Part shown: one piece after another, positions 43,476 to 54,952 of the stretch | Layout of the letters: each line of letters opens with the position of its first letter | Numbering within the stretch: position 1 is the first letter of the stretch | Assembly: GCA_029547805.1 (NCBI GenBank) | Contig: JAKPOP010000001.1 | Location: 186,001 to 250,000 of the forward strand | Source of the DNA: Deltaproteobacteria bacterium | Lineage (GTDB): Bacteria; Myxococcota_A; UBA9042; DTJE01 | Direction: 5' to 3' | DNA: 64,000 bases | Notes under the pieces: model-generated | The model's database searches: none | What the model saw: the letters and a program-made list of their open reading frames with translations, nothing else | What the model was told of the DNA's origin: nothing | Position numbers and translations under genes: made by a program

Positions 43476-46400
43476 ATGAGCCGGCTTGAAGACCTTCACG
43501 TCCATGCAGTCGTTGGGGGAATCGTTCCCGATGCCCCCGTCACCGTGGTGAGCGTTCAGTGGATCGGCAGCGATGCCCTGTATTTGACTTACAGGGACGT
43601 TGCGGGACGGGTCGGCCAGGATCTGCTGTACCGGACCGACGAGATGCGCCTCCAGGTCGTCGAATCCGGGCGTCCGTTCAGCCTGGATGGCGACGGGGAC
43701 CTGTTCCGTCTGGTGTCCGAGGCGCACCGCATCCGCCTGGCCTATCTCTTCGATCCGCTCCTCGCGGTCCACACGTCGCTGCTGGACCCGCTCCCGCACC
43801 AGATCACCGCGGTGTACGGGGCGATGATCCCGCGCCAGCCTCTGCGATTCCTGCTCGCCGACGACCCGGGCGCCGGCAAGACCATCATGGCCGGCCTCCT
43901 CATCAAGGAACTGATGGTCCGGGGCGACGTCCAGCGGTGCCTGATCGTCTGCCCCGGCAACCTGGTCGAGCAGTGGCAGGACGAACTGTACCGGCGTTTT
44001 CATCTCCCCTTCGAGATCATGACCAACGACCGACTGGAGGCCGCCCGGACCGGCAACTGGTTCGTCGAGCAGGACCTCGTCATCGCTCGCCTGGACAAGT
44101 GCGCCCGCGACGACGCGGTCCAGGCCAGGCTCTCCGCTCCCCAGTGTCGGTGGGACCTCGTGATCGTGGACGAGGCCCACAAGATGTCCGCCACCTTCTT
44201 CGGCGGCGAAGTGAAGTTCACCAGGCGCTACAGACTCGGGCAACTCCTGTCGGGGCAGACCCGGCACCTTGTGCTCCTGACCGCGACGCCCCACAACGGC
44301 AAGGAAGAGGATTTTCAGTTGTTCATGGCGCTCCTGGACGGCGACCGCTTTGAGGGCCGCTTCCGGGACGGCGTGCATCAGGTGGACGTCTCGGACCTGA
44401 TGCGTCGCATGCTCAAGGAACGTCTGGTCAAGTTCGACGGGACGCCCCTGTTCCCAGAACGGGTCGCCTACACCGTGCCCTATCGCCTCTCTGACCAGGA
44501 GGCCCATCTCTACAGAGAGGTCACGGCCTACGTCCGCGACGAGTTCAACCGCGCCGAGGCCATGAGGGATGACCGGCGCGCCGGAACTGTGGGCTTTGCC
44601 CTCACGATCCTCCAGAGGCGGCTCGTCTCCTCGCCGGAGGCGATCTATCAGTCCCTGCGTCGCCGTCGCGAGCGGCTCGAGGTGCGACTGCGGGAGATGG
44701 AGGTCGCCCGCCGGGGTGGCAGGACCCCGTTGGTTCCCTCCAGCCCCACCATGGATCCTGAGGACCTGGACGACCTCGACGACGCGCCGGAACAAGAGGC
44801 GTCCGGGAAGGAAGAAGAGGTCCTCGATCAGGCCACGGCGGCCCGGACCATTGAGGAACTCGCAGCGGAAATCGCCACCCTGAAGCGGCTTGAGGCCATG
44901 GCCCAGGCCGTGCGGCAGAGCGGCGTGGACCGCAAGTGGCAGGAACTCGCCTCGCTGCTCTCCGAGATCTTCACGTCCACAGCGCTGGCCTCCGGCGCCG
45001 CCGAGCCCTCGCTGCCCTACGGCGCCGGGCCCATCCCCAGGCCTTCGCCCTCCCCGAGCCACAAACTGGTCGTGTTCACCGAGCACCGTGACACGCTGCG
45101 CTACCTGGCCGATCGGATTGCCACGCTGCTCGGCCGTCCTCACGCCGTGGTCACGATCCACGGCGGAATGGGGCGCGACGAGCGGCGCAAGGCCCAGGAG
45201 GCGTTCCTCCACGACCCGGAAGTGCGGGTCCTTGTCGCCACCGACGCGGCCGGGGAAGGGATCAACCTCCAGCGCGCGCACCTGATGGTCAACTACGACC
45301 TCCCCTGGAATCCCAACCGGATCGAGCAGCGCTTCGGTCGCATCCACCGGATCGGACAGACCGAGGTGTGTCATCTGTGGAACCTCGTGGCCGAGCAGAC
45401 CCGCGAGGGCGACGTGTACCGGCTCCTGCTCGAGAAACTCGAACAGGCTCGCCAGCGGCTGGGCGGACAGGTCTTCAACGTGCTCGGGAAACTCCAGTTC
45501 GATGGCAGGCCCCTGCGCGACCTGCTCATCGAGGCCATCCGGTACGGGGAGCAGCCGGAGGTGCGGGCGCGACTCACGCAGGTCGTGGTCGGCGCCCTGG
45601 ACCCGGACCATATCGGAGGGCTCCTCGATGAGCGGGCCCTCGTCCACGAGGTCCTCGACCCCTCCCGACTGATGCGCATCCGGGAGGACCTGGAGCGCGC
45701 CGAGGCCCGACGCCTCCAGCCTCACTTCATCGAGTCGTTCTTCCTGGAGGCCTTCCGCCGGCTCGGGGGGACCGTGCGCGAGCGGGAGCCCAAACGGTAC
45801 GAGATCACCCATGTCCCGGCCGTGATCCGCCAGTGCCACCGGGGGAGGGGGACCGGCGAGCCGGTGCTCGACCGCTACGAGCGCATCACCTTTGAAAAGG
45901 CCCTGATCGCCCCTCCGGGACAGCCTGTCGCGGCGCTCGTCTGTCCGGGACATCCCCTGCTTGATGCCGTGATCGACCTGGTCCTGGAGCCTCACCGGGA
46001 CCTGCTCCGCCGGGGCACGGTGCTGGTGGACGAGCAGGACGTCGGCGAGGAACCGCGCCTGGTCTTCTACCTGGAACACGGGGTCCGGGATGCCGGCATG
46101 ACCTCGTCCGGCGATCCCAGGGTGATCTCTCGGCGGATGCTGTATATCGAGATGGACCGCGACGGCCATATGCGGCATTCCCAGTACGCGCCCTACCTTG
46201 ACTTCCGCCGGCTTCGACCTGACGAGCCCCAGCCCGAGGCCATCCTGCAACGCCCGGAATGTGCCTGGATCACGCAGGACATCCAGAATCAGGTGTTTCA
46301 GCACGCCATTCTGCACGTGGTGCCGGAGCACCTCGAAGAGGTCCGGACCCGGCGCCGGGAGTGGGTCGAAAAGACCCGGACCGCCGTGAAGGACCGGCTC

Positions 46401-54600: not shown

Positions 54601-54952
54601 GGACCAGGAGGAGGATTCGGGCGGCCGAAGGGGTGCCCAAGGGACTGGAGGCAGCCAGGGGCAGGGTGGGGGTACGAGCGGATCCGGCCAACAGACAGGC
54701 GTGTCCGAGGTCCAGGCTCCCCATCGCTTTCACGGGAGTGTGCGCCTTGACCCTGTTCGGGCCGGTGCCGACGCGGGCCGGGTCGTCCAGGAGGTGCTGG
54801 CGCACCTGGTCGGAAGTCCGGACACCAACGTCTGCGTGACCCTTGAAATCGAGGCCACCTCGCCGAGAGGCTTCAGGGAAGACGTCGTGCGCATCGTGAC
54901 CGAGAATGCCCGAACGCTGCGATTCACGGTCCAGGGCTTCGAAAGGGAATAG
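51626..54952 (+). CDS. Swt1/HEPN-DUF499 AAA+-like ATPase (HMA ATPase)
   Basis: 1108 residues. N-terminal helical domain (~1-150) of the Swt1-HEPN type with RNRWAH (R94...H99), the Rx4-6H RNase signature. The DUF499 ATPase follows, with Walker A NFGGGKTH (246-253, K251) and Walker B LVLIDEW (D361, E362). The C-terminal part (~990-1040) is a Gly/Ser/Gln-rich linker, then a ~80-residue domain. DUF499 ATPases occur with DUF1156 methylases and helicases in phage-defence loci. GAGGAG seven bases before the ATG and a 10-base gap to the methylase place it last in the operon. Confidence 0.9.
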   Translation: MSMTNHERVGKALDLLRAGLAPFVEREFRDAFGDDMPAEVARFLDDDRLNMGRPAGEWDVAALLKVMWESWNEVFRRTLGFAERSLVSELRGWRNRWAHQEAFSSDDADRALDSAERLLTAVSAPQAEEVHRIKMDLRRLVFDEQVRAERRRLGGSLIGAGAAGALRPWREVAVPHPDVRSGRYQQAEFAADLWQVHLGEGSDEYRDPVEFFRRTYLTDSLGHLLTTAVARLSGAGGDPVVQLQTNFGGGKTHSMLALYHLFSGHPPTALPGVETVMRAAGVAALPAVRRVVLVGNRLSPGNPVQKSDGTVVRTLWGELAWQVGGREAYDRIRADDERATSPGDRLREIFRDYGPCLVLIDEWVAYARQLHDASDLPGGSFETQFTFAQALTESARAVSNCLVVVSLPASEQAASPHARTEDEEVGGLRGREALDRLRNVIGRVESSWRPASAEESFEIVRRRLFEPFSDPEQFTARDVVALAFADLYRAQRGEFPPECCEAGYEQRLKAAYPIHPEVFDRLYGDWSTLLTFQRTRGVLRLMASVIHSLWDKGDRSPLILPSSIPMDDPRVQFEITRYLSDNWVPVIEKDVDGPGSLPVRLDAEVDNLGRYSACRRVARTVYFGSAPVTGAAHRGLEDRRVRLGCVMPGESPANFGDALRRLAAAATYLYQDGNRYWYATQPTVTKLAEDRAEQLRREPDKVAREVERRVRQDVRQAGDFSRVHPFPQGNADVPDDLEARLVVLDTSAPHARGDDHSAALRRARDLLDSRGGAPRIYRNTLVFLTADQARLQDLEAAVRLYLAWDSILGDREALNLAPQQVRQAETQRQAADHMVTARLPETYMWLLVPVQVDPNAEVTWQALRLQGGEGLAVRASKCLRKDELLLVSFAGTRLRMELDRVPLWRGDHVEVRQLIEDFARYLYLPRLKGPDALRAAIRDGVGLITWGQDSFAYADFYDESSRRYRGLRGGQALDHILETGLVVKPDVARRQMDQEEDSGGRRGAQGTGGSQGQGGGTSGSGQQTGVSEVQAPHRFHGSVRLDPVRAGADAGRVVQEVLAHLVGSPDTNVCVTLEIEATSPRGFREDVVRIVTENARTLRFTVQGFERE

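Follow-up and report, generated by a model that had tools for sequence, protein, structure and literature searches.

Does a toxin–antitoxin pair that lies inside a defence operon belong to the machinery of that operon, or does it occupy a slot there? The question is raised by a 64,000-nucleotide stretch of a Deltaproteobacteria bacterium genome (GCA_029547805.1, contig JAKPOP010000001.1; hereafter the window), in which open frames and family searches identify five intact genes on one strand at 43476–54952, coding for HmaA, DarT, DarG, HmaB and a HEPN-fused HmaC (Table 1). We judge it likely that the locus is a complete Hma system whose HmaA–HmaB (A–B) slot was filled, after the core had been assembled, by an independent DarTG pair of the macrodomain type; darTG is probably an independently acquired, co-transcribed second defence layer.

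Table 1. Genes of the Hma–DarTG operon and the slot occupied by darTG (window positions)
Feature	Position	Strand	Evidence
hmaA, SNF2 helicase with C-terminal PD-(D/E)XK-type nuclease domain (NOV_C)	43476–47045	+	Pfam, PADLOC, motifs
darT, DNA thymidine ADP-ribosyltransferase toxin (by family)	47042–47689	+	PF14487, NCBIfam, E168
darG, macrodomain DNA ADP-ribosylglycohydrolase and DarT-binding antitoxin (by family)	47705–48748	+	Pfam, PADLOC, NCBIfam, PDB matches
hmaB, DUF1156 N6-adenine-type DNA methyltransferase, TTG start, alternative ATG 48760	48757–51615	+	Pfam, PADLOC, motifs
hmaC, N-terminal Swt1-like HEPN fused to DUF499 AAA+ ATPase	51626–54952	+	Pfam, PADLOC, motifs
A–B slot of Hma operon, filled by darTG	47046–48756	.	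slot census, GC3

The name Hma comes from the PADLOC paper and stands for helicase, methylase and ATPase (PMC8565338; this and the other publications are cited from excerpts). Such systems were later grouped as Type-1 BREX-related (BR), with a nuclease at the C-terminus of the helicase presumed to be their main effector (PMC12839542). By every sequence feature tested, the core in the window is a full Hma (Type-1 BR) system: HmaA combines SNF2-rel_dom and Helicase_C with NOV_C, the Pfam family that corresponds to the DUF3883-like end seen in the original prediction; HmaB carries DUF1156 and a catalytic motif; and HmaC joins HEPN_Swt1 (residues 11–123) to DUF499, the HEPN part being optional and fused to the ATPase in 1370 of 2446 taxa with Type-1 BR (PMC12839542). 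The name HMA given in the original prediction proves right because the PADLOC models score strongly in the operon genes (HmaA 1636 bits, residues 1–1188; HmaB 1049 bits; HmaC 1113 bits, residues 165–1106). The catalytic motifs described as intact are, as far as checked, present and conserved in relatives: GAGKT and DEAH of HmaA are kept in 49–51 of 51 aligned rows and its C-terminal ExK in 50 of 51; HmaB has DPFAGGG and DPPYY, with DPPY kept in 65 of 67 rows; and HmaC keeps GGGKT in 55 of 57 rows and the HEPN motif R-x4-H (RNRWAH) in 43 of 57. HmaB is termed an m5C methylase in the PADLOC paper (PMC8565338); PADLOC's own HmaB model is for a DNA-adenine methylase, the DPPY motif in the window agrees with it, and the later paper likewise has an adenine methylase (PMC12839542). 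HmaB of the window is 46–51% identical to the HmaB proteins of three sampled loci (L040, L247 and L272), compared with 65–73% for HmaA and HmaC, as if its target specificity were exchanged or fast-evolving.

The nested DarTG, predicted to be complete, is by families and residues a canonical macrodomain-type pair. DarT scores 210 bits with Pfam PF14487, 228 with PADLOC and 227 with NCBIfam (cut-off 150); its E168 is invariant in 10 aligned rows and is aligned to an alanine in the solved DarT chain 7omv, which we take to be Thermus DarT with an engineered catalytic mutation. The adjacent DarG has a Pfam Macro domain and scores 439 bits with PADLOC and 440 with NCBIfam (cut-off 250); its macro domain matches 5m31, and its C-terminal, toxin-binding part (residues 167–325) matches chain B of 7yk3. 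The DarT search gave one DarT match in this 4.08 Mb genome.

The tight packing first reported for the five genes was confirmed: the start of darT overlaps the stop of hmaA (ATGA, −4 bases), and the other junctions measure 15 bases (darT/darG), 11 bases from the ATG or 8 from the TTG start (darG/hmaB), and 10 bases (hmaB/hmaC), with the start of hmaA taken as the ATG at 43476, internal to a longer frame opening at 43380. With −4 to 15 bases between the genes, there is no space at the junctions for a promoter or terminator. A sigma-70 promoter scan inside the operon returned nothing promoter-like, and a terminator scan returned 4 terminator-like sequences vs. 4.7 expected by chance, none of them at a junction of the five genes. 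Judging from the junctions, the five genes are probably co-transcribed. A search for insertion scars gave short imperfect repeats only. An empty chromosomal site was sought via the downstream cytochrome gene, which has a match in 8 of 13 family genomes; the upstream neighbours did not adjoin it in the stretches read from four of these genomes, one stretch being just 5.2 kb long.

Because the A–B junction is elsewhere empty or filled by other defence genes, it looks like a cargo slot, and darTG looks like swappable defence cargo rather than part of a new machine. The HmaB model matched 34 of 377 sampled genomes of the window's phylum at E ≤ 1e-50 (weaker matches include fragments and related DUF1156-type methylases) and, at E ≤ 1e-150, 13 of 398, 8 of 277, 35 of 271 and 24 of 111 genomes in four other phyla, whose samples were centred on a gammaproteobacterial metagenome-assembled genome (MAG), a Desulfobacteraceae MAG, a Chloroflexi MAG and Meiothermus luteus. 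Longer stretches were taken around part of the hits (20 regions, one DarT-only, and 60 regions), and the slot census covers 78 loci with HmaB, the window included; L023 and L197 lie outside it. With gaps taken from tblastn alignments rather than from the true ends of the genes, the A–B junction was readable in 62 loci including the window, 20 empty (<250 bp) and 42 filled, and the HmaB–HmaC (B–C) junction in 64 loci, 27 below 250 bp and 37 larger. At the empty slot of L272, the hmaA and hmaB frames overlap by 4 bases, the same spacing as that of hmaA and darT in the window. A–B occupants elsewhere are a Schlafen AlbA_2 protein with a RecG-like C-terminus (L255, and L034 in the same-genus genome G010), Fic (L247), GmrSD (L261), the YhcG nuclease (L040), NYN (L273), a DUF4062 protein (L249), and an OLD-type nuclease with PDC-S54 (L271); the A–B proteins of L252 and L041 had no Pfam family match.

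A simple frame picker drew 140 frames from the two slots (69 A–B, 71 B–C), of which 129 were scanned; the 11 left aside come from L276 (reverse-strand frames) and from L283 and L288, which are near-duplicate loci. The resulting family counts are lower bounds that mix both slots and include some spurious frames; at L034 the picker missed the true Schlafen-type frame and took a reverse-strand frame instead. Pfam families among these 129 frames are AAA, Schlafen AlbA_2 (7), Fic (5), NYN (4), Macro (3), HicB (3), GmrSD (2), HEPN (2), nucleotidyltransferase (2) and DarT (2); PADLOC models include HEC-01A, PtuA, PDC-M07A, AbiLi, AriA and others, the ATPase models overlapping one another. At L290, in a genome sampled around Meiothermus, the A–B slot holds a Schlafen-type gene, and a solitary 150-residue DarG-type macrodomain gene (3355–3804, minus strand; 235 bits with the DarG model, cut-off 250) lies between hmaB and hmaC; tblastn found no DarT at that locus, and the macrodomain, with no toxin beside it, may counter DNA ADP-ribosylation.

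DarT–DarG itself lies between HmaA and HmaB in three of the 62 A–B slots, those of the window, L032 and L265. A one-off insertion, with darTG never found there in relatives, had been allowed for originally and can be set aside, since DarTG recurs at the same junction in both loci; the synteny in other genomes is real, with a DarT lineage that diverges from that of the window. L032 is of the same class as the window, its contig ends within HmaB, and its DarT and HmaB hits were already known to share a contig before its stretch was taken. The genome of L265, from the Chloroflexi-centred sample, came from the HmaB search and not from the DarT search, and its DarG upstream of HmaB was known before the census. 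DarT of L032 is 45% identical to that of L265 and 25% identical to that of the window; with 103 and 107 bits, the DarT proteins of L032 and L265 fall short of the NCBIfam DarT cut-off (150), and the DarG proteins of the two loci pass the DarG cut-off (250) with 273 and 284 bits. A DarT1/DarG1 identity for the L032/L265 pair was considered and dropped: the DarG proteins pass the DarG model, Pfam macrodomains occur among the slot frames, and L265 has macro-type matches in the PDB, so we call the pair divergent macro-type.

Is the pair then inherited with the Hma core? Near cores are without DarTG, and we rejected this possibility for the window. The Hma core highest in percent identity to that of the window, L271 (75/73/70% for HmaA/B/C), has the OLD-type occupant; the other near cores are L255 (72%, Schlafen) and the empty L272, L274 and L275 (72–73%). 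Near cores of L032 are L034 (71% in HmaA, Schlafen) and L042 (65%, empty), and those of L265 are L252 (67%, filled, no DarTG detected) and L263 (65%, empty). Given that near cores have an empty slot or a different occupant, descent does not link the core to the slot content in our sample, and no conserved Hma–DarTG unit by descent was found among the sampled loci. The joint Hma–DarTG system proposed in the original prediction is supported in part: the tight nesting and the recurrence at one junction stand, and a place for DarTG in the Hma machine, as a sensor of its failure, is unsupported. Since the DarT lineages diverge and the near cores of each carrier are empty or otherwise filled, the comparison points to at least two acquisitions of DarTG into the slot, and probably three. 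We also rejected the idea that DarTG–Hma is common on plasmids: 180 plasmid records matched a DarG+HmaB query, and among the matches listed (40 rows) 0 had one place covering 80% of it, in a search that a divergent DarG could escape.

Codon composition sets the cargo apart as well. With amino acids fixed, HmaA–C codon usage as reference and 2000 simulations, GC content at third codon positions (GC3) was 0.758 in DarT vs. 0.861 expected and 0.785 in DarG vs. 0.867 expected, each as low in 0 of 2000 simulations; GC3 of HmaA, HmaB and HmaC fits expectation, but these three form the reference. At other loci, 44 of 72 cargo genes (forward, ≥180 residues, enough reference codons) fall below z −2; cargo often differs in composition from the operon that hosts it.

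Several points weigh against independent acquisition as swappable cargo. Junctions of −4 and 8–11 bases could suit a tuned joint system too; lower GC3 can stem from causes other than late arrival, and the remaining cargo lies within z 2 (22 of 72) or above +2 (6 of 72), in a set that includes a few near-duplicate loci; the census is a sample of five phyla and not a full survey; and DarTG recurs next to modification or restriction genes of several unrelated systems, a possible functional affinity beyond defence-island clustering.

A probable mode of action follows from the gene families: HmaB would methylate self DNA, HmaC would organise recognition and may keep its HEPN RNase domain in reserve, and HmaA would unwind and cut unmethylated DNA (PMC12839542). 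DarT modifies single-stranded DNA, and DarG holds DarT and reverses the modification (PMC11481870). DarG would hold DarT until infection upsets the balance, whereupon DarT would ADP-ribosylate thymidines in single-stranded phage DNA and block replication. Nesting would then provide shared transcription, as the junctions suggest, and joint transfer of two DNA-directed layers. Physical coupling of Hma and DarTG would not be required, and we saw no sign in the sequence of a sensor linking the two.

An alternative, already raised in the original prediction, is addiction: loss of the operon would free long-lived DarT from labile DarG and kill the cell, so that the costly Hma operon is kept. DarTG is a toxin–antitoxin pair, for which such behaviour is possible, and other toxin-type families (HicB, Fic, HEPN, nucleotidyltransferase) occur among the scanned frames of both slots. 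However, the explanation is inapplicable to other A–B occupants because Schlafen, GmrSD and YhcG look like single effectors; others look like ATPase–nuclease systems (OLD), and 20 of the 62 A–B slots are empty. We regard addiction as unlikely.

Two further alternatives turn on where else DarTG is found. A scan of GTDB genomes confirmed at least 553 DarT relatives, of which the best 80 were examined, some in stretches that end near DarTG on one side, together with 20 loci of the window's phylum. An hsdR-type gene (same strand, downstream within 2.5 kb, by tblastn with two proteins from these loci, one Pfam-confirmed as HSDR_N) follows in 20 of the best 80 and 1 of the 20 phylum loci (21 of 100), and a PLD-helicase of the Type-2 BR kind is present in 5 of the best 80 (L124, L135, L136, L145 and L148), the same five loci that have weak HmaC-like matches. 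Among neighbours picked by length, those upstream of DarTG (n = 67) carry Methylase_S in 15 cases and DUF1156 in 5, and those downstream (n = 69) carry HSDR_N in 15 and PLDc_2 in 5. Neither arrangement was found in 71 of the 100 loci, and 3 have an HsdR match elsewhere. In the DarTG tree, the window pair groups with L073, L071 and L087 (support 0.69 to 0.95), all without Hma genes shown; DarTG of L087 comes after an HsdM-type gene. At L086, L097 and L102, DarTG lies 0–53 bases downstream of large Eco57I/MmeI-type methylase genes, a further host system.

This pattern could reflect substrate coupling: DarT would prefer the single strands that a restriction helicase exposes, and the two would attack one phage DNA in succession. 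The hsdR-type, Methylase_S and Type-2 BR associations, and the three Hma loci, would fit; the 71 other loci and the 3 in which HsdR is not directly downstream do not, some of the pattern is expected from defence-island clustering alone, and DarTG alone suffices for defence in Vibrio cholerae (PMC11481870). For the window we hold substrate coupling to be improbable. The wider proposal is that methylase/restriction-helicase operons of several kinds (type I restriction, Type-2 BR, Hma) have acquired DarTG again and again because their helicase lays bare the single-stranded DNA that DarT modifies, restriction and DNA ADP-ribosylation making up a two-step attack on one phage genome; it is doubtful, if slightly less so.

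A guard model, the original idea that DarTG senses failure of the Hma part, would have phage inhibitors that disable Hma release DarTG. The shared operon and the hmaA–darT overlap speak for it, and back-up nuclease effectors have been proposed for BREX and BR systems (PMC12839542). Against it, there is no lineage-level association: Type-1 Hma genes appear in none of the stretches of the best 80 of at least 553 DarT relatives (a weak helicase match at L097, 31% identity, lies away from DarTG). The slot is variable or empty, the cores closest to the window carry other cargo or none, and codon composition differs; moreover, the DarG model covers the length of the window's DarG, in which Pfam and NCBIfam found no further domain able to sense Hma. 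The guard model is accordingly as improbable as substrate coupling for this locus.

Nesting by chance is unlikely because three DarT genes were observed in 73,900 bases of A–B gaps where <0.001 was expected (rough arithmetic, ~6 Mb per genome; DarT at E ≤ 1e-8 in 22 of 377 sampled genomes of the phylum). Chance insertion without selection would accommodate the foreign codon composition and the finding of the window's DarT lineage in Hma only in the window, and is extremely improbable given this excess, the clean junctions and the retained catalytic residues.

It is already in print, to go by excerpts and citing papers, that defence genes can be embedded in Hma and that DarTG can lie within a type I restriction operon. 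The window resembles Hma/Type-1 BR systems in its helicase-nuclease, DUF1156 methylase and HEPN-fused DUF499 ATPase, and differs in having darTG between hmaA and hmaB. As in the Hma-embedded genes of Payne et al. 2024 (via citing papers), which include Septu in Hma, foreign defence genes lie within an Hma operon; here the occupant is DarTG. In the RRDM island of enteropathogenic Escherichia coli (PMC12255303), DarTG2 lies between hsdS and hsdR, likewise in one operon with a methylation-restriction system; however, that host is type I restriction with an RptR repressor and an M48 peptidase, and in the window the neighbours of darTG are HmaA, HmaB and HmaC, not hsdM, hsdS and hsdR.

The five Type-2 BR-like operons (at about 2–13 kb of their loci; Desulfobacteraceae-type and Deltaproteobacteria genomes) place DarTG between a DUF1156-type methylase and the PLD-helicase of a DUF499 system, with PADLOC confirmation for L124 only. 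They differ from the window in having a PLD-helicase for HmaA, the order ATPase–methylase–darTG–helicase, and DarT 48–50% identical to that of the window; HmaA of the window has no PLD domain in Pfam, and thus no HKD/PLD endonuclease–helicase fusion, and fits the HmaA model. No description of DarTG inside Hma was found in the literature searched, within the excerpts available and with the listing in the Payne 2024 preprint unchecked. DarTG is thus added to the occupants of the Hma slot, with entry from two distant DarT lineages and with empty and otherwise filled versions in relatives, which gives a clean set of comparisons on whether defence genes nested in an operon cooperate with it or just travel along.

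Two other frames of the window are of minor note. A GGDEF diguanylate cyclase gene (42633–43337), on the strand of hmaA, ends 138 bases upstream of it, and a short open frame at 59697–60158, which looks truncated, has a match to ATPase_2 (N-terminal part of the family) under the curated cut-off.

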